8,753 nt of DNA. Source: Verrucomicrobiaceae bacterium (lineage in GTDB: Bacteria > Verrucomicrobiota > Verrucomicrobiae > Verrucomicrobiales > Akkermansiaceae). The notes below the pieces were generated by a model that worked only from the letters and a program-made list of their open reading frames with translations, was not told the origin of the DNA and made no database searches. Below are positions 946-8,753 of this stretch, piece by piece; position 1 is the stretch's first letter; each line of letters begins with the position of its first letter. The translations under genes were made by a program, and so were the position numbers. The DNA lies in NCBI GenBank assembly GCA_003820635.1, contig RPOS01000128.1:1-8753 (forward strand). Direction: 5' to 3'.

Positions 946-2133
946 TCAGTCTCCGATGTGCACGGTGGTGCCGTAGGGTGGTCTAATCGTTAGACTAGTG
1001 AGTGCCCACAGCACGGGGTAGCCGGGTGGGGTGCCGAACGGCGTCTCGCCGTCGGTCAGCACAACACAGGCGTCAGGCTTGATGTTCTTGGCGTGCATGT
1101 AGTCGAACGCAACGGGCAGGTCTGTGCCGCCACCGCCACGGGGTTGCAGGTCTGCTACGGCAAACTGTCCGTGCTCGAAGGTCTGGTGGGCAGCAACGCG
1201 AGTGTCGACATACATCACGTCTACGTACGTGGGCTTGACCTGCTCGATGATGACAGCCAGCTCGGATACGAACCGCGTGGCAATGTCCGTGCCGAAGCAC
1301 GACCCGCTGGTGTCGAACACGACAGCCAAGCGCGTCATAGTAGTGCTCACCATAGACGGCAGGTAAATGTCCGCGTCTAAGTACCGTCTGTTAGGTCTGC
1401 GCCATGTCGCCTCGTCACGGCCTGTGCACGTCTCACTCACAAACTCACGCAGCACCTCACGCCAGTTACGGGCAGGGTGCAGCAGCTCACCGAATGAGGG
1501 CGTATTGTCGAGGCCCATCTGGGCAGCACGTCGCTTGGCAAGTATCTCGCCTTGGCGTAGCGCTTGGTCGATCTCCTTGATGCGCTTGTCGTCGAACGCT
1601 TGTTGCGCTGCGTCGGATGTATCGGCGTCGGATGTATCGGCGTCGGGTGGGGGTGCGTTGTCGGGCAGATGCTCGTCGAACGACTGGGGTGGGGTAGGAG
1701 GCGGGTTCTTCTTGAGGTCGGCAAAGATACGACCGACTGACCAGCCCCGGTACTTAGGCTCAGGCTGCACACCTAGGGCGGGCATAGCGAGGAAGTCATC
1801 TGTGCCGTTCATGTCCATCAGGGTCAGGTTCACGAAGTGATCCATCGCAATGTTAGCGAGCTGGGCATTCTCGTTGATGAGTGAGCGCCATACCCGCAGG
1901 TGGCGGTAGGCTTTGTGTTGCTGCTCGTGCAGGATGAGCAGGCGCAGTTGTGGGTCGGTGAGTGAGGAGACGAACTCGGGGTTGACCATGACATTCCACC
2001 CGTCAGTCGCAGCGGTGGGTATGGTGTCCGTGATAGTGAGCTTGCCACATGCCATGATGCCGGCGTACCGGCAGAAGCGTGGGTGTCTCATGATGGCGAT
2101 CTTCGCCTTGTTGATACGGTCTTGAACTTGCAT
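946..2133 (-). CDS. VWA-like protein with HEXXH metallopeptidase-type N-terminal domain (DUF2201/COG3864 type, 395 aa)
   Basis: The start is ATG at 2133 behind ACTAAGGAACAACC. The N-terminal domain carries the zincin motif HEQQH at residues 69-73 in the context LLILHEQQHKAYRH, then NIAMDHFVN (94-102), as in DUF2201 metallopeptidase-like domains. A Pro/Asp-rich linker (about 142-178) contains a duplicated DADTS. The C-terminal VWA-like domain has the MIDAS motif DTSGS at 274-278, a GGGGTDLP loop at 333-340 and VVLTDGE at 357-363. In cellular genomes such proteins are paired with a MoxR-type AAA+ ATPase; that ATPase is encoded at 5021-6085, about 2.9 kb upstream in the same direction, not adjacent. 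The role is inferred as substrate recruitment or metal-dependent remodelling with the ATPase. The last 16 codons (SLTIRPPYGTTVHIGD) also contain the leader dyad and SD of the next gene. Confidence 0.88.
   Translation of the reverse strand: MQVQDRINKAKIAIMRHPRFCRYAGIMACGKLTITDTIPTAATDGWNVMVNPEFVSSLTDPQLRLLILHEQQHKAYRHLRVWRSLINENAQLANIAMDHFVNLTLMDMNGTDDFLAMPALGVQPEPKYRGWSVGRIFADLKKNPPPTPPQSFDEHLPDNAPPPDADTSDADTSDAAQQAFDDKRIKEIDQALRQGEILAKRRAAQMGLDNTPSFGELLHPARNWREVLREFVSETCTGRDEATWRRPNRRYLDADIYLPSMVSTTMTRLAVVFDTSGSCFGTDIATRFVSELAVIIEQVKPTYVDVMYVDTRVAAHQTFEHGQFAVADLQPRGGGGTDLPVAFDYMHAKNIKPDACVVLTDGETPFGTPPGYPVLWALTSLTIRPPYGTTVHIGD
980..996 (-). promoter_or_regulatory. Leader dyad copy 1 (inside the 3' end of the VWA gene)
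   Basis: The plus-strand sequence is GGTCTAATCGTTAGACT, with 6-bp perfect arms around a 3-nt centre. It lies 35 nt upstream of the ATG at 944 and wholly within coding sequence, specifying SLTIR of the VWA protein. On the start-codon side it is followed by CCACCCT as in the composite copies. The usual second palindrome is replaced by CACCCTACGG, with a weaker GCAC-CACC-GTGC hairpin after it. Confidence 0.75.
1611..1640. repeat. Two perfect 15-bp tandem units in the VWA gene linker
   Basis: CGTCGGATGTATCGG occurs twice in direct contact, followed by a partial third copy (CGTCGGGTGG). It encodes the repeated DADTS/DTSDA segment of the acidic Pro-rich linker between the HEXXH and VWA domains. 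The repeat keeps frame, so the linker length may vary between relatives. Confidence 0.9.
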
Positions 2134-2179
2134 GGTTGTTCCTTAGTGGTTTCCTTGGTAGTTAGCGTGATGCGAAGCA

Positions 2180-2196
2180 GGTCTAATGGTTAGACC
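2180..2196 (-). promoter_or_regulatory. Leader dyad copy 2 (VWA gene leader)
   Basis: GGTCTAATGGTTAGACC has perfect 7-bp arms. It lies 46 nt upstream of the VWA gene start at 2133. The TAA stop of the preceding gene (2190-2192) is formed inside the dyad. It is flanked by a direct repeat GCGAAGCA at 2172-2179 and 2199-2206. No CACCCT palindrome accompanies this copy. Confidence 0.8.
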
Positions 2197-2543
2197 ACGC
2201 GAAGCACCTCAATAGTGTTATTGAGCTTGTTGACTGAGGTGATAACGGCGCCTTTACCCCAACGTGCAGTGAACCACCCAGACATGGTGCCGCGCAGTCC
2301 TTCGAGCTCATATTTACCCGCAGGCACAATGCGCATATCGCCCGGCTGCATATCTATCACCATTGGTCGGTAGTAGTTACTCATCTCCCCAATCGGATGC
2401 GCCGAGACACGTTTTGTTTTGACGGGGGCCAGCACAAGCTCGCCGTACTCCGTGCCGTCTGGGGAGATGATCTTGTACTTTGCCTTGATGGAGTTGAGCA
2501 GCAGCACAGCACGATCCAATGCGGTTTTTTCTACGTTGTTCAT
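2190..2543 (-). CDS. Conserved-looking hypothetical phage protein (117 aa)
   Basis: The start is ATG at 2543 with the SD AGGGA provided by the last codons of the preceding gene (AGGGACTAATCATG). The N-terminal 25 residues are helical (KTALDRAVLLLNSIKAKYKI), followed by ISPDGTEYGELVLAP (26-40) and a basic KTKR. The C-terminal half ends in GAVITSVNKLNNTIEVLRVV. This architecture (helix, short beta pair, basic hinge, beta-rich tail ending 'NTxEVLRV') is familiar to me from uncharacterised phage proteins that may bind nucleic acid. That function is an impression, not shown by a motif. It is last in the four-gene block 3334 to 2190. Its stop codon lies in the leader dyad of the VWA gene, and its 3' end also holds the hairpin at 2208-2225. 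Confidence 0.85.
   Translation of the reverse strand: MNNVEKTALDRAVLLLNSIKAKYKIISPDGTEYGELVLAPVKTKRVSAHPIGEMSNYYRPMVIDMQPGDMRIVPAGKYELEGLRGTMSGWFTARWGKGAVITSVNKLNNTIEVLRVV
2208..2225 (-). other. Hairpin near the 3' end of the 117-aa gene
   Basis: CTCAATA-GTGT-TATTGAG is a perfect 7-bp stem with a 4-nt loop, located 11 bp before the leader dyad at 2180-2196. It lies in coding sequence (residues LNNTIE). There is no T-run, so it is not an intrinsic terminator. With the dyad it makes a tandem hairpin pair in the mRNA ahead of the VWA gene. Confidence 0.5.
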
Positions 2544-2545
2544 GA

Positions 2546-2953
2546 TTAGTCCCTGTAGTAATAAGTCTGTCCGTCAATCTCAATGGTGGAATAGTCTGAT
2601 CTGATGTTCTCTGCGGTAGCTTCCCAGTCGATCTCGATGTACCACGCCAACTTCTTGGGCACGTCGCCTCCGTCCTCCAGCATCTCCCGCACATGGTCGC
2701 TGAAATGACTCTCATGAATGAGAAAGTCGGCACTACCTACCTCTTCGATAATGTCGATTAGCTTGGCGTACTCCTGACCCTCGGGCTGTTGTTTCTCCCA
2801 TACCTCGGCAGTCTCTTCGCGCAGGTTGTTGTAGTCGTCGTGGTCTTCGTCGATGCCAGCCTCCTCGCACGTCTCATCGAGGAACTGATCGCGCTCATCC
2901 TCTAGCTCGGACACTCTGTCCCGTAGCTCGTCAACATTTAGATAGTCACTCAT
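2546..2953 (-). CDS. Highly acidic phage protein, possible DNA mimic / antirestriction-like (135 aa)
   Basis: The start is ATG at 2953, overlapping the preceding stop as ATGA. By my count 42 of 135 residues are Asp or Glu against 11 Lys or Arg, a net charge near -31. Residues 1-60 are likely coiled coil (VDELRDRVSELEDERDQF). The C-terminal half reads FLIHESHFSDHVREMLED (79-96), then KLAWYIEIDWEATAENIR and a final TIEIDGQTYYYRD. The 'HExxFxxxVxExLED...W..IDWEATAxNIRxDY' pattern is one I associate with phage and plasmid proteins often placed near antirestriction factors of the ArdA kind. The match is from memory, and the strong acidity fits DNA mimicry but does not prove it. It is third in the block 3334 to 2190. 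Confidence 0.85.
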   Translation of the reverse strand: MSDYLNVDELRDRVSELEDERDQFLDETCEEAGIDEDHDDYNNLREETAEVWEKQQPEGQEYAKLIDIIEEVGSADFLIHESHFSDHVREMLEDGGDVPKKLAWYIEIDWEATAENIRSDYSTIEIDGQTYYYRD

Positions 2954-3117
2954 TGCTTGGCCTCCTTAAGTAGTGCTGTCTGTAAGCGTGTCAGGTCACG
3001 CTGGTGGTCATACATCTGTGGCCGTGGCGTATAGGCTCGGCCTATCCGTGTCGGGTTCCAGTCCTTGTGTAACCGCACAATCGTGCGTCCGTTTGATGTT
3101 GTCTCAAGTCGTAGCAT
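2950..3117 (-). CDS. Small basic hypothetical protein (55 aa)
   Basis: An upstream ATG at 3174 is in frame, but the ATG at 3117 has the SD GGAG six bases before it (GGAGATCACCATG) and gives a 14-nt overlap with the preceding gene, a spacing seen twice more in this window. I therefore use 3117. The 55-aa product (MLRLETTSNGRTIVRLHKDW...) is basic, with a beta-like N-terminus, a Pro/Arg-rich middle (NPTRIGRAYTPRP) and a C-terminal helix (LTRLQTALLKEAKQ). Its stop overlaps the next start by ATGA, so translation of the two is probably coupled. Not recognised. Confidence 0.75.
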   Translation of the reverse strand: MLRLETTSNGRTIVRLHKDWNPTRIGRAYTPRPQMYDHQRDLTRLQTALLKEAKQ

Positions 3118-3334
3118 GGTGATCTCCGTTTTTCTTGGCCAGAGCTTTGGCTGATTTAGCTGCGTATTCTTCACTCATTAGGTACTCCGCCAGCTTGTAC
3201 AAAAACCGCACACTGGCAGCATGTCGCTTGCTAGTTACTGCAAACGTGGCCGGAATGGTAGAAAGCAGCTCTTTGATGTATATCCCATAGTCCGCCCGAA
3301 ACGGTGGTTGCCCACCGGGTTTACGTAGTTTCAC
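3104..3334 (-). CDS. Small basic hypothetical protein, GTG start (76 aa)
   Basis: The frame is open to a GTG at 3361, but that start would sit inside the palindrome at 3359-3374 and has no SD. The GTG at 3334 lies six bases after AAGGAC (ACCAAGGACACAATCGTG), matching the ACTAAGGACACA-type leaders of the genes starting at 2133, 6085 and 6924, so 3334 is preferred. The protein begins MKLRKPGGQPPFRADYGIY and has two predicted helices (YIKELLSTIPATFAV; ASVRFLYKLAEYLMSEEYAAKSAKALAKK). It ends in GDHHATT. It is basic and soluble, with no motif I can name. It heads the four-gene block 3334 to 2190. Confidence 0.72.
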   Translation of the reverse strand: MKLRKPGGQPPFRADYGIYIKELLSTIPATFAVTSKRHAASVRFLYKLAEYLMSEEYAAKSAKALAKKNGDHHATT

Positions 3335-3358
3335 GATTGTGTCCTTGGTAATAATTGG

Positions 3359-3390
3359 CACCCCATACAGGGTGGTCTAGCGGTTAGAAC
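3359..3390 (-). promoter_or_regulatory. Leader element copy 3 (dyad plus second palindrome)
   Basis: The palindrome CACCCC-ATAC-AGGGTG (3359-3374, one mismatch in the stem) shares its last G with the dyad GGTCTAGCGGTTAGAAC (3374-3390), the most degenerate of the eight copies. It lies 39 nt upstream of the GTG at 3334. The TAA of the preceding gene (3384-3386) is formed by the dyad arm. Confidence 0.75.
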
Positions 3391-3746
3391 GGCACGTCTA
3401 CCTCGTCGCCCAGTTTTGAGGCGACGTAGCAACGCATGGCTGCAATGAGGGGGGTTGGGCCGTACTCATGCTCTCTGTCACTCATTGGGAAGAGTGCTTT
3501 CCAGCGACATGAATCGTCGTAAAGCAATGAAGGCTCATAAGCCACTGAAATTTTCTCCCGCTCGATGATCGGCCCTGCGTGCATCCAACTGGACGCATAC
3601 CGTGACTTTTTAGGGTCTTTATATTTGTCTCCTTTCATCAGGTATGGGTAGCTACCTGCGTTGTCTGTGGCGGTGACTAGCTGCCACCCTTCGGCAAGAT
3701 CAACCGCTAGGTTGAGCGCCATACCTGTCAGTTCACTTGCCTTCAT
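3384..3746 (-). CDS. NinX-like phage protein (DUF2591 type, 120 aa)
   Basis: The start is ATG at 3746: GAGGAG lies seven bases upstream, while ATGs at 3752 and 3761 are too close to the SD or lack one. It begins MKASELTGMALNLAVDLAEGW and contains MHAGPIIEREKISV (about 55-68) followed by YGPTPLIAAMRCYVASKLGDEVDVPF at the end. The 'M(K)xSELTG', 'GGPIIE+E+I' and 'GxTPLxAAMRxYVxSKxGxEV' blocks in this order are those of the DUF2591 family, which includes NinX of lambdoid phages. Its function is unknown. It overlaps the preceding gene by 14 nt and is last of the six-gene block 4975 to 3384. Its stop lies in the leader dyad of the next block. Confidence 0.88.
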   Translation of the reverse strand: MKASELTGMALNLAVDLAEGWQLVTATDNAGSYPYLMKGDKYKDPKKSRYASSWMHAGPIIEREKISVAYEPSLLYDDSCRWKALFPMSDREHEYGPTPLIAAMRCYVASKLGDEVDVPF

Positions 3747-4065
3747 TTGCATACTCCTCAAGGGATTGGATTAACTTCTTGCGTCGTTCTGTATGCTGCT
3801 TCTTCTGGTAAGAATCGGAGCTGAGATTAAGACGTACGTACTCTTTCGATCCGGGCATACAGGCCAGAGTCAGGCGTATCATCTTCCGCACTGTTTCCTC
3901 CCGCTCGGCGTTCAGTTTGAGTAGCTTCTCGATGTTGTCGGTCAGCTGAGGCAGGACGGCGGCAGCGCGCTCCATCTCGGGCACGTGGTAGTCCGGCCAC
4001 TGCTCCTCCGGGTACTCGCCCTTGATAGTGTTAGCGGCGAACATCAGCAGCTCATGTGCTTTCAT
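3733..4065 (-). CDS. Helical hypothetical protein (110 aa)
   Basis: The start is ATG at 4065 directly after GGAGGGGAA, overlapping the preceding stop as ATGA. The N-terminus MKAHELLMFAANTIKGEY resembles the 'MKAHELL..AA' start of several small phage proteins. It shares its first five residues with the membrane protein at 4292-4486 (MKAHE) and nearly with the NinX-like protein (MKASE). Residues 30-110 are likely long helices (MERAAAVLPQLTDNIEKLL; EREETVRKMIRLTLA; HTERRKKLIQSLEEY), compatible with a coiled coil. It overlaps the next gene by 14 nt. Not recognised beyond this. Confidence 0.82.
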   Translation of the reverse strand: MKAHELLMFAANTIKGEYPEEQWPDYHVPEMERAAAVLPQLTDNIEKLLKLNAEREETVRKMIRLTLACMPGSKEYVRLNLSSDSYQKKQHTERRKKLIQSLEEYANEGK

Positions 4066-4295
4066 TTCCCCTCCACTTGACGTATTACTGCACGCGCCCT
4101 ACGTATCTCGGCCATGTCCCGGTTATGGTCAGCACAGTTAATCAACTCCTTGCACGAGGCGAGCAGGTCAGGTGCTGCGTCGTGCAATCGCTTCCTAGCC
4201 GTCTCCTGCTGGAAGGTCGGGCACGGTCGCACCAGCCCCTTGTCGATGTGCGGGTCGTCACCGCAGAAATTAAGGCAGTCACACTTGGGTTTCAT
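4062..4295 (-). CDS. Cys-rich small protein with phage 'AAPDLL' tail (77 aa)
   Basis: The start is ATG at 4295 with SD GGAGATCAAT, overlapping the preceding stop as ATGA. The N-terminus holds four Cys (residues 5, 7, 11 and 25 in CDCLNFCGDDPH...VRPCP) plus His16, which could bind zinc; this is inference from composition. Residues 36-77 (RLHDAAPDLLASCKELI...RRARAVIRQVEGK) match the helical 'AAPDLLxxLxxL...ARAxI' tail seen in many small phage proteins, including the protein at 4715-4975. Function unknown. Confidence 0.82.
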   Translation of the reverse strand: MKPKCDCLNFCGDDPHIDKGLVRPCPTFQQETARKRLHDAAPDLLASCKELINCADHNRDMAEIRRARAVIRQVEGK

Positions 4296-4486
4296 ATTGA
4301 TCTCCGGTTACGTTTCCAATAATCAACAACAACAGCGCAGGTGAAACCAACAAGGCCAGAAAGCGCAGTGTTTAGTGACATCACGAGCAGGCTTGCCCCA
4401 TTTGTTATCCATAGGGCTAAAAGGCCCACATGCGCAGCTAACATTACAAAAAAAGCCGTGTAGAGCATTCGTTCATGCGCTTTCAT
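4292..4486 (-). CDS. Small two-span inner-membrane protein (64 aa)
   Basis: The start is ATG at 4486 with GGTGA eight bases upstream; it overlaps the preceding gene by 14 nt. Two hydrophobic segments, about residues 8-27 (LYTAFFVMLAAHVGLLALWI) and 33-54 (LLVMSLNTALSGLVGFTCAVVV), are joined by a short polar turn (TNGAS). The C-terminus is basic (DYWKRNRRSI), predicting N- and C-termini in the cytoplasm. Size and topology would suit a small holin-like or superinfection-type membrane protein. It sits among early-type genes with no lysin nearby, so a lysis role is not supported. The stop overlaps the next start by ATGA. Confidence 0.8.
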   Translation of the reverse strand: MKAHERMLYTAFFVMLAAHVGLLALWITNGASLLVMSLNTALSGLVGFTCAVVVDYWKRNRRSI

Positions 4487-4697
4487 ATATCTTCACCTTC
4501 ACACAGTTACCCATTAGCCCGGTGATCTCACACCGGGCGAACTCATCCTCATCTCCGAATACGAACGTGGCGCCGGGGTAGTGGGCTAGCCATTGGTTGA
4601 GCTGGGCCTCCTCGTGATCAGTCAGTCCGGTCACGTCGCCGTACTCCACGGGGCAGATGTAGTGCTGGCCTATCGTGGCCTCTTCGATTAAGTTCAT
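4473..4697 (-). CDS. Small acidic phage protein (74 aa)
   Basis: The start is ATG at 4697, nine bases after AGGAGA. Residues 9-60 read IGQHYICPVEYGDVTGLTDHEEAQL...QWLAHYPGATFVFGDEDEFARCEITGLMGNCVKVKI. The pattern 'L...E...L..WLA.YPGATF......F..CEITGL.G.V..' is familiar from small phage proteins of unknown function. It is predicted to be one helix followed by a beta sheet. It is second in the six-gene block 4975 to 3384, with a 17-nt gap from the gene before and a 14-nt overlap with the gene after. Confidence 0.83.
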   Translation of the reverse strand: MNLIEEATIGQHYICPVEYGDVTGLTDHEEAQLNQWLAHYPGATFVFGDEDEFARCEITGLMGNCVKVKIYESA

Positions 4698-4714
4698 TAG
4701 TTATCTCCTGTTGC

Positions 4715-4975
4715 TCAGGCAATGGCGGCACGGGCTGCGACTACATCCGGATGATCTTTGTGAAGTTCGTTTGGAAACGTAGACGCCATGCTTTGCAGCG
4801 TTTTCAGCGCCTCCAACAAGTCAGGCGCAGCGGCGATCAAGCGAGCGTTTGCTTTTGCATCATTCTCGCCGTGGTAGACCGTGGCATTCGCCACTGCCCA
4901 GCCGCTAGCGTCGTAAATGATCTTTTCAGCTTGTTTAACGCCGACGTGCCACGGCCCGGGTGTGTGTTGTGTCAT
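4715..4975 (-). CDS. 'HTPGPW' phage protein (86 aa)
   Basis: An in-frame ATG at 4987 exists, but the ATG at 4975 has GGAG six bases upstream (GGAGACCACTATG) and gives the usual family start MTQHTPGPWHVG. The middle (IIYDASGWAVANATVYHGEND) is beta-rich. The tail AKANARLIAAAPDLLEALKTL...VVAARAAIA is the typical C-terminus of this abundant but uncharacterised phage and prophage family. It heads a six-gene block; its leader carries the composite element at 4995-5027. Confidence 0.88.
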   Translation of the reverse strand: MTQHTPGPWHVGVKQAEKIIYDASGWAVANATVYHGENDAKANARLIAAAPDLLEALKTLQSMASTFPNELHKDHPDVVAARAAIA

Positions 4976-4994
4976 AGTGGTCTCCATGCTGGTG

Positions 4995-5027
4995 CACCCT
5001 ATACAGGGTGGGTCTAACGGTTAGAAG
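4995..5027 (-). promoter_or_regulatory. Leader element copy 4 (dyad plus second palindrome)
   Basis: The perfect palindrome CACCCT-ATAC-AGGGTG (4995-5010) abuts GGTCTAACGGTTAGAAG (5011-5027). The dyad lies 35 nt upstream of the ATG at 4975. The TAA of the MoxR gene (5021-5023) is part of the dyad, and its outer two base pairs are lost to the codons for the final Phe and Tyr. Confidence 0.8.
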
Positions 5028-6085
5028 TACTTGCCCATATCCGACGCTGCACGCCGGAACAGCGAGTCGGCACAGGCCATCGGGGCCTTGTCACGGTTGC
5101 CCGCCACGGTGGTGATGTACAGCGCACGTGCCTCGAACGACTCCCATCGGTTGATATACGTCATGACAGGGGCGATAGTCGTGCGGGTCGTGTCCATCGC
5201 CAGCCTGAAGGCCAAGATAAAGTAACTGGCAGTGTCCGGGGGCAGTGGGGCAGTGTCCGGGTGCTCGGTAATAGTCTCGGTGGGCGGCAGCTTGTCAGAC
5301 AGCCGCAGCAGGGCGTCCATGTCGCGGGCAGCAGACTCACCCACGGTGCCAATCAGGGCAGGTAGTGTAGCTTCGCCTAGCGTGTGGCGATGCGTGATGA
5401 TGTGTGAGGCATGAGCGAGAGACCGAGGGCTACAGAAGGCACGGGTCTGGTTGTTGAGGGGGTTGAATATGTACGGGTTCTTGGTCGTGGGGTCGTCGGC
5501 ATAACACTCGAACACTTGGGAATATTCTTGGGCGAAGGCCAGCACCTCTGCTGCGATGGCGTTGTGAGGGGAGGATGTGGCCCAGTTGATCCACTCCTCT
5601 GCCGTGGGGTTGGCAATAGGCAGCACAGTCATGCGGTTGTACGCATGAGCCGGGATGTTATCTCCCACGCCGTCAGTGTCGAGGTTAGTCGTGGCAAAGA
5701 CTATAGAGCCCGGGGGCAGGGGATGGTCGCCTAGCCTGCGCTCGAGGATGACCGGCAACAGCATGTTAAGCACCGGCCGGGACGCCTTGCCCAGCTCGTC
5801 GAGCATGATAAGCACGGGGCGTGGCTGGTGTGCACCGAACCGTACGTTCGGGGCGTAGGTCGTGGTGGGTATGGCGTGGGCAGGTCGGTCAATGATAGGC
5901 AGCCCGAGGTCGCCTAGGTCTAGGTTAGCGCAGTCGATGTACGCAGGGTGGTAGTCCGGCATGTGACGTGCAAGGGACGTGAGGATGCTCGATTTGCCGA
6001 TGCCCGGGGCACCGCGCAGGAGGAACGTATTGGTGTGTCCGCAGGTCTGCACGAGGGTGGCAGCTTGTTGCAGTGTGACTTTCAT
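5021..6085 (-). CDS. MoxR-type AAA+ ATPase (354 aa)
   Basis: The start is ATG at 6085 behind ACTAAGGACACACC. Motifs in order are: Walker A GAPGIGKS at 25-32; Walker B VLIMLDELGK at 91-100 with the DE pair at 96-97; sensor 1 ATTN at 131-134; a likely arginine finger R151 in AHAYNRM; and sensor 2 region SPRSLAHA at 219-226. The C-terminal part (about 245-354) is helical. This is the MoxR/RavA branch of AAA+ proteins, ring ATPases that act with a VWA-domain partner in complex assembly or metal insertion (e.g. MoxR with VWA proteins, RavA-ViaA). The expected partner is encoded at 946-2133 in the same direction. The phage role is unknown. The leader has the dyad at 6135-6151 and a 21-bp repeat. 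Confidence 0.92.
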   Translation of the reverse strand: MKVTLQQAATLVQTCGHTNTFLLRGAPGIGKSSILTSLARHMPDYHPAYIDCANLDLGDLGLPIIDRPAHAIPTTTYAPNVRFGAHQPRPVLIMLDELGKASRPVLNMLLPVILERRLGDHPLPPGSIVFATTNLDTDGVGDNIPAHAYNRMTVLPIANPTAEEWINWATSSPHNAIAAEVLAFAQEYSQVFECYADDPTTKNPYIFNPLNNQTRAFCSPRSLAHASHIITHRHTLGEATLPALIGTVGESAARDMDALLRLSDKLPPTETITEHPDTAPLPPDTASYFILAFRLAMDTTRTTIAPVMTYINRWESFEARALYITTVAGNRDKAPMACADSLFRRAASDMGKYF

Positions 6086-6113
6086 GGTGTGTCCTTAGTG
6101 GTGATGAATAGAT

Positions 6114-6134
6114 ATGTGAATAGATAGTTGACTG
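6114..6134. repeat. 21-bp direct repeat, copy A (MoxR leader)
   Basis: This copy is identical over 21 bp to 6266-6286 in the coding sequence of the preceding gene. It lies between the leader dyad and the MoxR start. In minus orientation the leader also contains a short tandem of TATCTATTCA, so this stretch is rich in TCTATTCA units. Confidence 0.85.
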
Positions 6135-6151
6135 GGTCTAACGGTTAGACT
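6135..6151 (-). promoter_or_regulatory. Leader dyad copy 5 (MoxR leader)
   Basis: GGTCTAACGGTTAGACT, with 6-bp perfect arms, lies 49 nt upstream of the MoxR ATG. The TGA of the preceding gene (6151-6153) directly adjoins it. Instead of the CACCCT palindrome it is followed, toward the start codon, by the 21-bp repeat. Confidence 0.8.
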
Positions 6152-6924
6152 CAGGCAGGGATGTGAGTGACGAGGGTTTCTATCGTGTGGTACATGTGCT
6201 CCTTGGCTTTAGTGAGGATGTGGTTGAGGGTGTCCTTGGCTGGCAGCTTGCGCTGTTGCCACATGATGTGAATAGATAGTTGACTGTACGCGGCAACAAC
6301 GGCAGGCCACAGCTCAGGCTGAGTGGTGATAGCAAGGGCAACAGCTCGGGAGTCATATAGCTTGTGCTGGTAATAGAGCTGTTGCGTATCGTTGGCAGCG
6401 GCAGCGTCTTTAGTGTCGGGCACCCCAGCGTGCAGCACAGGGAACACTGAGCGGAACTCCCGTGCAGAAGCGGCGAAGGGTCGGGATTGGGTGGTGTCGA
6501 TACACCTGCGCTTGAACGGAAGGGATCGACGGGGTGTGCCGTGTTGGTTGAGATACATCCCATCGTAAAAGGCGTAGTGGCCGTGGGTGGGGCTGTACAG
6601 GTGCCACTGGCTGAGTCCGAACCGCTTGTGTGAATAGATTCGAGACGGCAGTTTGATACGTGCGAGGGCGCTGTTGAGCGTGTCCTTGGTGACGTTAGTG
6701 CGCCACGAGCTGGCGTCGAGCTGCACTCGACCGTCGGGATAGGCTCGAAGGATGGGGGTTTTGTGGCACACGACCTCTGCACACAGAGGGCTGACGGTCA
6801 CGCGCTGGTTTGTCTTGCGTCGTTTGTGAGCGTCTAGCGGGGCGGAGCCTACGTAGGCACCTCGCTTGTATTTGTGTTTGTCGTAGTGGGCGGCAAGTAA
6901 GTCGTATGCAGTGGGCAATGTCAT
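6151..6924 (-). CDS. Hypothetical phage protein, histidine-rich (257 aa)
   Basis: The start is ATG at 6924 behind ACTAAGGACACATC. Not identified. Residues 1-45 are basic (AAHYDKHKYKRGAY; AHKRRKTNQR). Residues 50-85 (EVVCHKTPILRAYPDGRVQL followed by DASSWRTNVTKDTLN) look like the 'hxTxI....dGxxxLdsxgWxTxTTKxxIN' beta domain I know from uncharacterised phage proteins. The rest is mixed, with a helical C-terminus (LPAKDTLNHILTKAKEHMYHTIETL). The phrase KDTLN occurs twice (80-84 and 230-234). There are at least 16 His residues, but no metal-binding spacing I can name. It is the first gene after the strong promoter at 7029-7057. Codons 213-220 fall in the second copy of the 21-bp repeat shared with the MoxR leader. 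Confidence 0.85.
   Translation of the reverse strand: MTLPTAYDLLAAHYDKHKYKRGAYVGSAPLDAHKRRKTNQRVTVSPLCAEVVCHKTPILRAYPDGRVQLDASSWRTNVTKDTLNSALARIKLPSRIYSHKRFGLSQWHLYSPTHGHYAFYDGMYLNQHGTPRRSLPFKRRCIDTTQSRPFAASAREFRSVFPVLHAGVPDTKDAAAANDTQQLYYQHKLYDSRAVALAITTQPELWPAVVAAYSQLSIHIMWQQRKLPAKDTLNHILTKAKEHMYHTIETLVTHIPA
6266..6286. repeat. 21-bp direct repeat, copy B (coding)
   Basis: This copy is identical to 6114-6134 and lies 152 bp away. Here it encodes about YSQLSIHI near the C-terminus of the 257-aa protein. One copy is coding and the other is leader, so the match is not explained by protein homology. Confidence 0.85.
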
Positions 6925-6944
6925 GATGTGTCCTTAGTAGTGGT

Positions 6945-6993
6945 CACCCTATGCAGGGTGGGTCTAACTGTTAGACCGCCTAGCAATAGGCGG
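6945..6993 (-). promoter_or_regulatory. Leader element copy 6 with three consecutive hairpins
   Basis: Three hairpins follow one another: CACCCT-ATGC-AGGGTG (6945-6960), GGTCTAACTGTTAGACC (6961-6977) and CCGCCTA-GCAA-TAGGCGG (6976-6993). The last two share two bases. The dyad is 36 nt upstream of the ATG at 6924 and about 45 nt downstream of the predicted transcription start of the promoter at 7029-7057. No T-run follows any stem. Confidence 0.82.
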
Positions 6994-7028
6994 CTGGGTT
7001 GTGGTCGAGAACTCAGTATTGAGTATGT

Positions 7029-7057
7029 ATTATATCATATACTAGCCTATTTGTCAA
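7029..7057 (-). promoter_or_regulatory. Sigma-70 promoter, full consensus
   Basis: On the minus strand TTGACA (7057-7052) and TATAAT (7034-7029) are separated by exactly 17 bp, a perfect match to the bacterial consensus. The -35 box overlaps the stop codon of the HTH gene. It should drive the 257-aa gene and the operon beyond, with transcription starting near 7022. A consensus promoter implies use of the unmodified host polymerase early in infection. Confidence 0.92.
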
Positions 7058-7391
7058 GTAGGTGGGCTACAGCGGTGGCCCGTAGGTGGTCAATGATCTG
7101 CTTAACGCGTTGGCGGGATAGGCCATGCACGGCACCAGCCTTCGCCATGCTCTGGCCCTCGTACGTGACGCGCTTGTAAATATCTTGGTCCCGCGTGGCC
7201 GTGGGTAGGGTGGCAAGCGAGAGGGTGGGCATGTCCTCGGGGTTGGAGTAGTGCTGGAGAGTGGCAACAAACTCCGCTAGCGGGTAGAGGCGGCCTGTCA
7301 GCATGACATAACGCACGCCTTCTATATATTGTAGGGGTAAAGGTAAACCGTCGAGAGTCGGCAACAGTTCAAGCTTGAGGTTGGGGGTCAT
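7047..7391 (-). CDS. Putative HTH DNA-binding protein (114 aa)
   Basis: The frame is open to 7511, but the upstream part covers the promoter and leader; the ATG at 7391 has AAAAGGACTCAAG before it and is used. Residues 1-60 (MTPNLKLELLPTLDGLPLPL...) look beta-rich with two helices. Residues 74-104 (RVTYEGQSMAKAGAVHGLSRQRVKQII then DHLR) fit a sigma region 4-like or small-regulator HTH, with LSRQRVKQII as the recognition helix. It is the first gene of the leftward transcription run and its leader carries both palindromes, so it is a candidate for the factor that binds them. That link is inference from position. Confidence 0.82.
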   Translation of the reverse strand: MTPNLKLELLPTLDGLPLPLQYIEGVRYVMLTGRLYPLAEFVATLQHYSNPEDMPTLSLATLPTATRDQDIYKRVTYEGQSMAKAGAVHGLSRQRVKQIIDHLRATAVAHLLDK

Positions 7392-7407
7392 CTTGAGTCC
7401 TTTTGTG

Positions 7408-7439
7408 CACCCTATACAGGGTGGTCTAATCGTTAGACC
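7408..7439 (-). promoter_or_regulatory. Leader element copy 7 (dyad plus second palindrome)
   Basis: The perfect CACCCT-ATAC-AGGGTG (7408-7423) shares a G with the perfect dyad GGTCTAATCGTTAGACC (7423-7439). The dyad is 31 nt upstream of the HTH gene ATG and about 40 nt downstream of the predicted start from the promoter at 7483-7511. This is the cleanest copy outside coding sequence. Confidence 0.85.
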
Positions 7440-7482
7440 GGAGGGGATAATACTAGGATAAATACGTACGAAGCAAGATACA

Positions 7483-7511
7483 AGTATATCACACGGTGGC
7501 GTGTTTGTCAA
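7483..7511 (-). promoter_or_regulatory. Sigma-70 promoter of the HTH gene
   Basis: On the minus strand TTGACA (7511-7506) and TATACT (7488-7483) are 17 bp apart. The spacer contains a perfect inverted repeat ACACG-GTGG-CGTGT (7491-7504), which could be an operator between the two boxes. Predicted transcription start is near 7476. Confidence 0.87.
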
Positions 7512-7860
7512 GTATAGGGGTAAGTGGGAAGTATTATGAACAAGGTGAAGATAGTTATGAAAGAATCTCGTAGTACTTTATAACCAAAAAAACGTTACAG
7601 CGTCACTTTTTTGTTGCCTAAAATCAATGACTTGAAAAAATATAGGTTACGCACTTAGTCTAAAAAGCCTTTAGAATCAACGGGGTATCGATGTGACGTT
7701 ACGCCAAAAAAGGGTGGGTGGCTGCCGGAGCCCTTTTCAGCGAAAACACGGAAAGATATGTTCTATAACCAGCAAGGAAAGGGGGAAAAAGGAATTTCCC
7801 AGCCGCACTCCCCAAAAACAGCGTAACAGCGCTACAACTACTAACAAATAATTAATTTAT

Positions 7861-7874
7861 CTCTCTCTCTCTCT
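7861..7874. repeat. (CT)7 microsatellite
   Basis: Seven perfect CT dinucleotides adjoin an AT-only patch in the gene-free region. It is a polypyrimidine run that may be slippage-prone. Confidence 0.95.
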
Positions 7875-7895
7875 GTTAAATCAGTCACTTGCACT

Positions 7896-7928
7896 ATAAG
7901 AAAACCTGTAACGTTTTCACGTTACAGG
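7896..7928 (-). terminator. Intrinsic terminator after the 114-aa gene at 7958
   Basis: On the minus strand CCTGTAACG-TGAAAA-CGTTACAGG forms a 9-bp perfect stem with a 6-nt loop, followed at once by TTTTCTTAT. It lies 30 bp after the stop at 7958, in the right orientation to close that one-gene unit. The arms are also two of the GTTAC motifs of this region. Confidence 0.82.
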
Positions 7929-7957
7929 AGTGCCTCAAAACGTTACACGCGTTACAC

Positions 7958-8302
7958 TCATTCTGTTCTTTTCTCTAGTTTAATATACCCGTTCGGCAGC
8001 TCTGTTGCCTTCACCTTGCCGGCCATAATTCGGCAGAACTCTCGCAGCCTTGCCGCGCTCGGGAAGAGCTCCTTCAGTACTCTTGCTTCGTCTGCGGTCA
8101 GGGTTATCTGGGTTGTGGCGCGATCTGGCAGCCTAGTCACGGTGATACTGCCCCCACGCTCAGTTTTCCACGTCATGCGCTTGCCTGCCTGTGCCGCATA
8201 CACGTGGCAGTAGGTCTTAGCCCGCGCAGCGCGTTCAGGGCCTATGGTGCAGCTCTCGCCCACTTGCATGTTTTTAAATGGCCATACAGTTCGTGAAAAC
8301 AT
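7958..8302 (-). CDS. Hypothetical phage protein (114 aa)
   Basis: The start is ATG at 8302 with the strong SD AAAGGAGAAATC. Residues 7-58 (WPFKNMQVGESCTI...ARAKTYCHVYAAQAGKRMTWKT...GSITVTRLPD) follow the pattern '(Y/W)PFxxMxVGxS......A......A...GKxFxxxT..G.I.V.R' of a small domain common in phage proteins of unknown function. Residues 66-100 are helical (LTADEARVLKELF, AARLREFCRIMAG) and the tail KATELPNGYIKLEKR is beta-like. It is basic and soluble. It forms its own transcription unit: -10 box at 8382, leader dyad at 8317 and terminator at 7896. Confidence 0.86.
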   Translation of the reverse strand: MFSRTVWPFKNMQVGESCTIGPERAARAKTYCHVYAAQAGKRMTWKTERGGSITVTRLPDRATTQITLTADEARVLKELFPSAARLREFCRIMAGKVKATELPNGYIKLEKRTE

Positions 8303-8316
8303 GATTTCTCCTTTGA

Positions 8317-8333
8317 GGTCTAACGATTAGACC
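8317..8333 (-). promoter_or_regulatory. Leader dyad copy 8
   Basis: GGTCTAACGATTAGACC has perfect 7-bp arms and lies 14 nt upstream of the ATG at 8302, so close that the base-paired form would end just before the SD AAAGGAG. No CACCCT palindrome accompanies it. Confidence 0.82.
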
Positions 8334-8541: not shown

Positions 8542-8625
8542 CTACCATTCAAAGAGCCATGCCAGAATCACAAAGCCCGCCATGATCGCCAGCGTGAGCC
8601 AGCCTAGTTCCTGCCCTACGCTCAC
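8542..8625 (-). CDS. Tiny single-span membrane peptide (27 aa)
   Basis: A GTG start at 8625 overlaps the TGA of the preceding gene (GTGA), with AGAGG eight bases upstream. The product begins MSVGQELGWLTLAIMAG, continues FVILAWLFEW and stops at TAG 5 bp before the terminator. Residues 8-27 form one hydrophobic segment of 18-20 residues, predicted transmembrane, with the short polar N-terminus outside the span. Stop-start overlap, SD-like spacing and position just before a terminator favour a real gene, though it is very short and uses GTG. Such micro-membrane proteins occur in phage lysis and late cassettes, but no family can be named. Confidence 0.5.
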   Translation of the reverse strand: MSVGQELGWLTLAIMAGFVILAWLFEW

Positions 8626-8753
8626 GCGTCAAGCCTCTCAAGCTCTTCCTGCCACCCTAGCAGGGCATCGCATTGTGCGAGGGTATCTTTGACCACCGTA
8701 TCAACCCGGCGCGAGAGCTCGGGGGGCAAGGTGCCACTAGTGCGGCATTCAAG
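8622..8753 (-). CDS. C-terminal end of a gene entering from the right (43 aa visible)
   Basis: The minus frame is open from the edge to TGA at 8622. It reads ECRTSGTLPPELSRRV near the edge and then DTVVKDTLAQCDALLGWQEELERLDA, a helical, amphipathic tail with two Cys. The 'C...LP.EL......L.QCDALL.W' style resembles the end of phage Rz/Rz1-like spanin subunits. With the tiny membrane ORF following, a lysis-cassette end is possible, but this is a weak inference from 43 residues. The gene ends a transcription unit closed by the terminator at 8515-8536. Confidence 0.65.
   Translation of the reverse strand, partial: LECRTSGTLPPELSRRVDTVVKDTLAQCDALLGWQEELERLDA

Follow-up and report, generated by a model that had tools for sequence, protein, structure and literature searches.

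Palindromes ahead of early gene blocks in a lineage of uncultured tailed phages: candidate operators for the product of the first early gene

Introduction

Short repeated sites ahead of genes have been described in several groups of phages. The stoperators of cluster A mycobacteriophages (L5, Bxb1) are reported as asymmetric sites of 13 bp, to which the repressor of the temperate phage binds as a monomer (PMC6550527, PMC9283540). In cluster K mycobacteriophages, the extended start-associated sequence (ESAS) forms an inverted repeat, with a consensus that varies from subcluster to subcluster and a function given as not established in these accounts (PMC3203893, PMC12699233). T4-like phages carry repeated cassettes made of an early promoter and a stem-loop (PeSL; PMC4503421), while the virion RNA polymerase of phage N4, as described, needs -11A/G and uses three promoters with conserved loop bases (PMC4496689). 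Here, a stretch of 8,753 nucleotides (nt) of contig RPOS01000128.1, hereafter called the window, was analysed for a 17-bp dyad that stands ahead of each of its gene blocks. Judged by its gene content (a MoxR-like ATPase, a VWA protein and a NinX-like protein) and by its relative G001, we mark the window as the early block of a tailed phage of ~64 kb.

We propose, with a probability of roughly 0.55, that these dyads are DNA operators for a sequence-specific and probably dimeric protein of the phage, which is most likely encoded by its first early gene and would brake early transcription.

Results

Occurrence of the dyad in the window and its close relatives

The sequence-only reading of the window had claimed eight copies of the dyad, one in front of each of eight gene blocks and each 14-49 nt before a start codon. 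A scan with GGTCTAAYNRTTAGACC yielded 4 matches without mismatch, 6 with at most one, 8 with at most two and still 8 with at most three, compared with a mean of 0.08 copies and a maximum of 1 at the last threshold in 300 first-order Markov sequences. All eight copies were thus recovered where they had been placed (Table 1), at distances of 35, 46, 39, 35, 49, 36, 31 and 14 nt from the start codon (copies 980 to 8317), and the list of open reading frames (ORFs) is consistent with one copy per block, the blocks being judged by eye. The dyad-bearing genes are all on the minus strand. Five of the eight copies reach into the preceding gene at its end or touch it, so that only those at 6961, 7423 and 8317 stand in true gaps. 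A second dyad, close to CACCCYATRYAGGGTG, was seen in four of the eight leaders (3361-3376, 4994-5009, 6945-6960 and 7408-7423), located between the main dyad and the ribosome site and abutting the main dyad or sharing bases with it; among the 101 loci searched, the exact CACCCYATRYAGGGTG occurs only in L011, L012 and L050, one copy each.

It had also been considered whether the motif might be equally common away from gene starts. This is not the case in G001 (IMGVR_UViG_3300036985_002667, 63,884 bases), whose ATPase is 95% identical to that of the window: its 11 exact cores are all confined to the early block (19982-33713), the remaining 50 kb having none. The reversed pattern gave no match in this genome, and tolerating two core mismatches added a single site, also inside the early block. 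Among the ten records searched, exact cores were further found in G002 (8), G003 (5), G004 (2, with 1 for the reversed control) and G010 (1), and none in the other five. Seven of the eight window leaders have a dyad at the matching place in G001, as compared by eye; the copy before the VWA gene (2180) is without counterpart there and has one in G003 and G004.

Placement relative to predicted promoters

Promoters were predicted as TTGACA (at most one mismatch) and TATAAT (at most two) separated by a spacing of 16-18. Across 286 copies, 45 start 20-39 nt past a predicted sigma-70 start, versus 2.1 expected at random positions in the same spans. A predicted promoter lies upstream of 54 copies, 50 of which are separated from the start by 26-47 nt, although homologous cassettes of related phages are not independent in these counts. 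In all five loci of the window clade (G001, L098, L099, L100 and L101), the TTGACA -35 box heading the early region has a copy no more than 2 bp away or sharing one base with it, with the reservations that L099 has another ORF ahead of the first-gene homologue and that the L098 copy has a core mismatch. Such a copy is outside the transcript of that promoter. Besides, 38 of 39 first genes have a dyad 101-237 nt upstream of their matched start (which is not residue 1 in a few loci), a layout as for an autoregulated gene.

Other palindromes in more distant relatives

The layout is no peculiarity of this sequence, since more distant relatives share it with other palindromes. These include TTTCGTAC, TTTCATAC, TTTCCCAC, CTTCACAC, TTACTGTC and CATCTAA types, CATCTAA-GCC-TTAGATG being the recurrent dyad in G010 and L016. 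In relatives found via the ATPase, of which stretches were fetched, the recurrent arms surround a 3-base centre (ATGTAA, ATTTAA, TTACTGT, CTTCACA, TTTCATA, TTTCGTA and ACCTGC), and a 2-base centre is seen in G006 (L050), L011, L013, L017, L020, L021 and L035. L033 and L034 carry the palindrome of L035 in the ATPase leader, but in fewer than three copies, and no recurrent dyad of this kind was found in L014, L027, KPP25 (L054) or Rollin (L056).

Each phage keeps to its own arms. Among the 39 loci that encode the first-gene protein considered below, 38 hold only one of the five types counted, in 1 to 15 copies, the sole exception being L072 with one copy of a second type (CCC). This is further illustrated by the sister phages L022 and L025, which share 90.7% DNA identity over the 3.3-kb stretch from the ATPase to the VWA gene, yet have different arms: 8 exact TACTGT-arm copies and no TTCACA-arm copy in L022, 5 exact TTCACA-arm copies and no TACTGT-arm copy in L025. 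The arms differ at shared places; in the four leaders aligned, both flanks are conserved in two and mainly the downstream one in the other two. The palindrome of a lineage is apparently matched to each phage's own version of a control protein.

Conservation of the arms

The arms were counted over 303 copies from 46 sequences, including several near-identical phages from different samples. From the axis outwards, the consensus pair is present in 280 copies at pair 1, 297 at pair 2, 298-303 at pairs 3-6, 285 at pair 7 and 214 at the outermost pair, and the central base is free (A60 C133 G57 T53). The dyad hence consists of 6-8 bp arms around a 3-base centre, reduced to 1 base when the adjacent pair is taken as part of the arms, or around a 2-base centre in some relatives. 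As at most one core mismatch was allowed, compensation within the core would escape this count. When the limit was lifted and the inner six pairs were counted in 45 sequences, 266 cases were identical to the consensus; the departures comprised 25 broken pairs, some of which resemble chance matches, 3 wobble pairs and a single compensated one. Both counts support the claim of the sequence-only reading, made from the window, that arm changes are uncompensated. A fixed stem with a free loop centre points to half-sites read in DNA, the usual recognition of RNA being the reverse, and the arm pattern fits a putative dimer reading such half-sites better than an RNA structure.

These counts also bear on the view that the dyad acts as a hairpin of the early mRNAs, with a 7-bp stem and a 3-nt loop, that would be cut by an RNase, protect 5' ends or bind a protein controlling translation of the next gene. 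The position of the window copies 14-49 nt ahead of a start codon speaks for it, as does the arm running directly into the ribosome site in some relatives, and the 2-, 3- and 4-base centres found across relatives would suit loops. We nevertheless consider it unlikely, as the fixed stem and free loop centre are the opposite of what RNA recognition usually shows, only 1 of the 29 departures affecting a single one of the inner six pairs is compensated, and the window-clade copy abutting the -35 box would be absent from the corresponding transcript. Thus, from the functions first suggested, an operator of a phage regulon gains support from the arm counts, whereas mRNA processing is disfavoured.

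The first early gene product as candidate binder

The protein first suggested as binder, a 114-aa helix-turn-helix (HTH) protein of the window, has tblastn matches in only 4 of 33 sequences, several of which are fragments (window, G001, G002 and G006). It is therefore not a general partner, and the best candidate binder becomes the protein encoded by the first early gene, which belongs to no known family. In an ORF-wise comparison of L022 with L025, this protein was conspicuous for an overall identity of 51% with a well-conserved C-terminal part, the other long early proteins being 83-97% and the small HTH proteins 72-88% identical; a few short ORFs are also low, including one of 51% in a non-coding stretch. 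The family comprises 98 proteins of the collection, all lacking a Pfam domain; hits to Pfam for L022 and L025 are weak and stay below the cut-off.

The 39 viral loci encoding this protein were assigned by their commonest arm to CGT (16), CAT (18) and CCC (5) types, although 11 of them, L072 included, hold only one or two dyad copies. CGT and CAT types are intermixed on the terminase tree. The co-variation set consisted of 19 loci (13 CGT, 6 CAT) from the branch holding both types; the near-duplicates L058, L059 and L068, the 5 CCC loci and the 12 CAT loci belonging to a different branch were left out. Residue 82 of the first protein is Thr in 13/13 CGT loci and Val in 6/6 CAT loci, and a second separating column, residue 74 (Leu,Lys / Ile,Val), lies 8 residues from it. 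Over the 20 families present in at least 15 of the 19 loci (3,614 columns), separating columns with at most four residue kinds occur only in the first-gene protein, which has two; no such two-state column exists in the other 19 well-sampled families. The 19 loci were picked after the alignment had been seen, so that the column test is not blind. Moreover, related loci are not independent and the real sample size is the number of switches, namely CGT vs CAT at least four times, plus CAT vs CCC, plus TTACTGT vs CTTCACA. The terminase tree requires at least 4 type changes (5.2 on average with shuffled labels). The first-protein tree requires 4 when its 18 separating columns, 16 of them consisting mostly of gaps, are removed beforehand.

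In an AlphaFold2 model of the first-gene protein (mean predicted local distance difference test, pLDDT, 86; predicted template modelling score, pTM, 0.55), a long helix 7-44 is followed by helices 60-71 and 76-93, and residue 82 falls within the latter. A Val-for-Thr exchange going along with an A:T-for-G:C change would be chemically plausible for a contact in the major groove. In G001, the first early gene (32809-33588) encodes a 259-aa protein with 35 relatives, a different family by sequence, whose model (mean pLDDT 86, pTM 0.60) has a long N-terminal helix 9-51 and helices 55-70 and 99-115. The window itself ends just short of its first early gene, and the candidate regulator gene is expected next upstream of the truncated ORF at its end. 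Because this gene lies beyond the right end, its product is proposed as the window's binder by position and analogy, and would work as its distant counterpart may do.

Gene content and neighbouring features

The features of the window are collected in Table 1.

Table 1. Dyads and selected genes of the window (positions count from the first letter of the window)
Feature	Position	Strand	Remark
Dyad copy 1	980..996	-	before gene 944-561; inside the 3' end of the VWA gene
Dyad copy 2	2180..2196	-	before VWA gene 2133-946; contains the TAA stop of 2543-2190
Dyad copy 3	3374..3390	-	before block starting 3334; contains the TAA stop of 3761-3384
Dyad copy 4	5011..5027	-	before block starting 4975; contains the TAA stop of the ATPase gene
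Dyad copy 5	6135..6151	-	before ATPase gene 6085-5021; touches the preceding stop by one base
Dyad copy 6	6961..6977	-	before gene 6924-6151; 45 nt past the predicted start of a TTGACA-17-TATAAT promoter
Dyad copy 7	7423..7439	-	before gene 7391-7047; 37 nt past the predicted start of a TTGACA-17-TATACT promoter
Dyad copy 8	8317..8333	-	before gene 8302-7958; weaker TTTACA-17-TATGAT promoter predicted to start at the dyad itself
VWA / metallopeptidase-like gene, DUF2201, phrog_1314	946..2133	-	
MoxR-like ATPase gene, phrog_1297	5021..6085	-	query for finding relatives
114-aa HTH protein	7047..7391	-	sigma-70 region 4-like, under the Pfam cut-off; binder proposed by the sequence-only reading
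Truncated ORF at window end	8622..8753	-	resembles the small second gene of G001 (compared by eye)

Among the matches listed, the family A DNA polymerase of G001 is nearest to those of Rhizobium phages RHph_TM and Pseudomonas phages such as KPP25 and Rollin, at 33-35% identity. The phage integrase domain PF00589 was found in 0 of 9 records, several of them fragments; other integrases and parABS were not searched for. At 7440-7957, ~500 bases of the window are non-coding and include a CT repeat as well as AAGTCATTGATTT, a motif also found in the non-coding early stretch of L022 and L023. In these two phages, the regions 5011-6300 (L022) and 7713-8910 (L023) are largely non-coding, with a boxA-like CGCTCTTTAACAA and conserved blocks resembling small RNAs, some of them immediately after a dyad. 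A minus-strand ORF at 113-558 of the window carries long Ala-Arg-Asp-Trp repeats, and L013 has like repeat ORFs in succession.

In L042 (804-879) and L044 (1894-1970), a tRNA-Thr(TGT) gene starts two bases past the end of a dyad (one base between); the matching copy in G001 is found just before the DNA polymerase gene, on the opposite strand. A separate family of sites, GTTACCT-N3/4/5-AGGTAAC, is present in L055 (Rhizobium phage RHph_TM3_14A), with 65 matches listed, some overlapping, at up to 3 mismatches in 49.9 kb, versus 2.8 expected in simulated sequence; these are spread over early and late genes.

Discussion

A brake on early transcription

Copy number, placement, lineage specificity, invariance of the arms and the one-branch co-variation with a helix of the first protein come directly from computation. 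From them, we infer that the first-gene protein binds the dyads, that it does so as a dimer and that it represses as a roadblock. The host sigma-70 polymerase would transcribe the early genes first. As it accumulates, the first-gene protein would occupy the operator beside the promoter heading the early region, the operators ~26-47 nt downstream of the other early promoter starts, and those immediately ahead of the ribosome sites of blocks inside the operon. The bound protein would block or stall the polymerase, damping early transcription block by block, and would limit its own synthesis, acting as an autoregulated, stoperator-like brake. Indeed, operators at the head promoter, 26-47 nt into other transcripts and before internal blocks form the layout expected of a repressor that also blocks elongation, in the manner of the cluster A mycobacteriophage stoperators (PMC6550527, PMC9283540). 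The same layout may serve the opposite sign, through activation or antitermination.

Several observations weigh against this proposal. The sense 3' end GACC is constant in 8/8 window copies while the 5' end is variable, and overlap with stop codons accounts for only part of this constancy. The same arms occur with a 2-base and a 3-base centre (CATCTAA, L017 vs G010), which is awkward for a rigid dimer, and most copies are probably transcribed, as a hairpin in RNA would require. Concerning the co-variation, a single separating column (seven residue kinds) is also present in each of two other families sampled in 17 loci. Such columns, one to four per family, further turn up in 15 of the 32 families present in 8-13 loci, so that small samples prove little. 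Residue 82 is a gap or Asn in the 12 CAT loci of the other branch and the 5 CCC loci; hence, the Thr/Val rule covers one branch only. The alignment of the window-clade and other first proteins by hhalign is not significant (probability 0.4%, E 0.16), although the same helix is paired. Finally, the five window-clade loci share one dyad type, which leaves no co-variation comparison in that clade.

Antitermination of the nut kind, in which the hairpin would be a boxB recruiting a phage factor and Nus proteins for read-through of a long early operon, with lineage hairpins paired to lineage N-like factors, appears improbable. It is in line with the 50 of 54 promoter-linked copies that start 26-47 nt past a predicted start, and boxA-like GCTCTTTA occurs in the leaders of some copies of L029, L031, L022 and L023 and once in G001; however, GCTCTT[TA]A is absent from the sense strand of the window, copies stand at every gene block of the window instead of once per operon, and the central loop base is free. 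It is quite improbable that the dyads belong to mobile cassettes of the PeSL kind (early promoter and stem-loop before a ribosome site) serving as homology for gene shuffling without a dedicated binder: promoter-dyad cassettes do recur within a genome and differ between phages, but a promoter was found for only 54 of 286 copies, and neither arm changes in place between sister phages nor co-variation with one protein residue would be expected. That the dyads are DNA-hairpin promoters of the N4 type, used by a virion RNA polymerase, is barely credible in spite of the palindrome with its 3-base centre, since the centre of the template-strand loop is a purine in only 5/8 window copies and takes all four bases in the 303 copies, some dyads end at the ribosome site, where a start ~12 nt away from the centre would not fit, and the similarity of the G001 2267-aa protein to the N4 virion polymerase family is limited to residues 98-443. 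The named phages with relatives of the MoxR-like ATPase include some which we take to be N4-like. A 2267-aa protein of L037 (3764-10567) carries LPD38 near its end and matches the N4 virion RNA polymerase family in part, at its N terminus.

Beyond an operator function, the dyads might constitute a self-recognition code, in which the first-made DNA-binding protein of a lytic phage group, of unrecognised fold, reads ~5-15 palindromes per genome, the sites and a few helix residues changing together. We regard this extension as tentative and rather doubtful. If true, phages ~90% identical in early-gene DNA would no longer share a code, and a repressor-and-operator identity system would exist without lysogeny, for instance against co-infecting relatives. 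As every site must change too, the change of specificity of a dozen-site regulator is an open question, for which related genomes offer several natural switches with a candidate protein and a candidate residue (TTACTGT vs CTTCACA, CGT vs CAT at least four times, CAT vs CCC). Besides, the dyads could be considered as a simple way to recognise early regions in uncultured phages, in which the first-gene protein likely represents a new DNA-binding family.

Comparison with known systems

Searches of the open-licence literature of PubMed Central, the sole literature covered, did not show such an operator system. As in N4, a palindrome with a 3-base centre lies in early DNA, whereas the three N4 promoters described have conserved loop bases and the present phages have about ten sites per genome with a free centre (PMC4496689). 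The lambda-type nut site differs by its boxA, GCTCTT[TA]A, missing from the window's sense strand and present in the leaders of some relatives' copies. The PeSL of T4-like phages is alike as a repeated cassette of early promoter and stem-loop (PMC4503421); here, however, only 54 of the 286 copies have a predicted promoter, and the pattern of the arms is that of protein half-sites. Like the dyads, the start-associated sequence (SAS) and ESAS stand just ahead of start codons of non-structural genes, but ESAS has imperfect 17-bp arms with spacers of mostly 4-13 bp, as against 6-8 bp arms and a 3-base centre (PMC3203893, PMC12699233). ESAS is also tied to the 13-bp SAS GGGATAGGAGCCC, and the account of these repeats names no partner protein (PMC3203893).

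The dyad is palindromic, in contrast to the asymmetric site bound by a repressor monomer in cluster A mycobacteriophages, and is thus not a stoperator by the stoperator's own definition; in the one near-complete close relative, moreover, the dyad sites are confined to the early block. Many stoperators likewise lie within genes or short gaps, as do the window copies, 5/8 of which overlap or touch the preceding gene. In both systems, many sites occur, for stoperators genome-wide and most of them off promoters, with further sites at early promoters, and in cluster A the sites and the repressor vary together between phages (PMC6550527, PMC9283540), as the dyads and the first-gene protein appear to do here.

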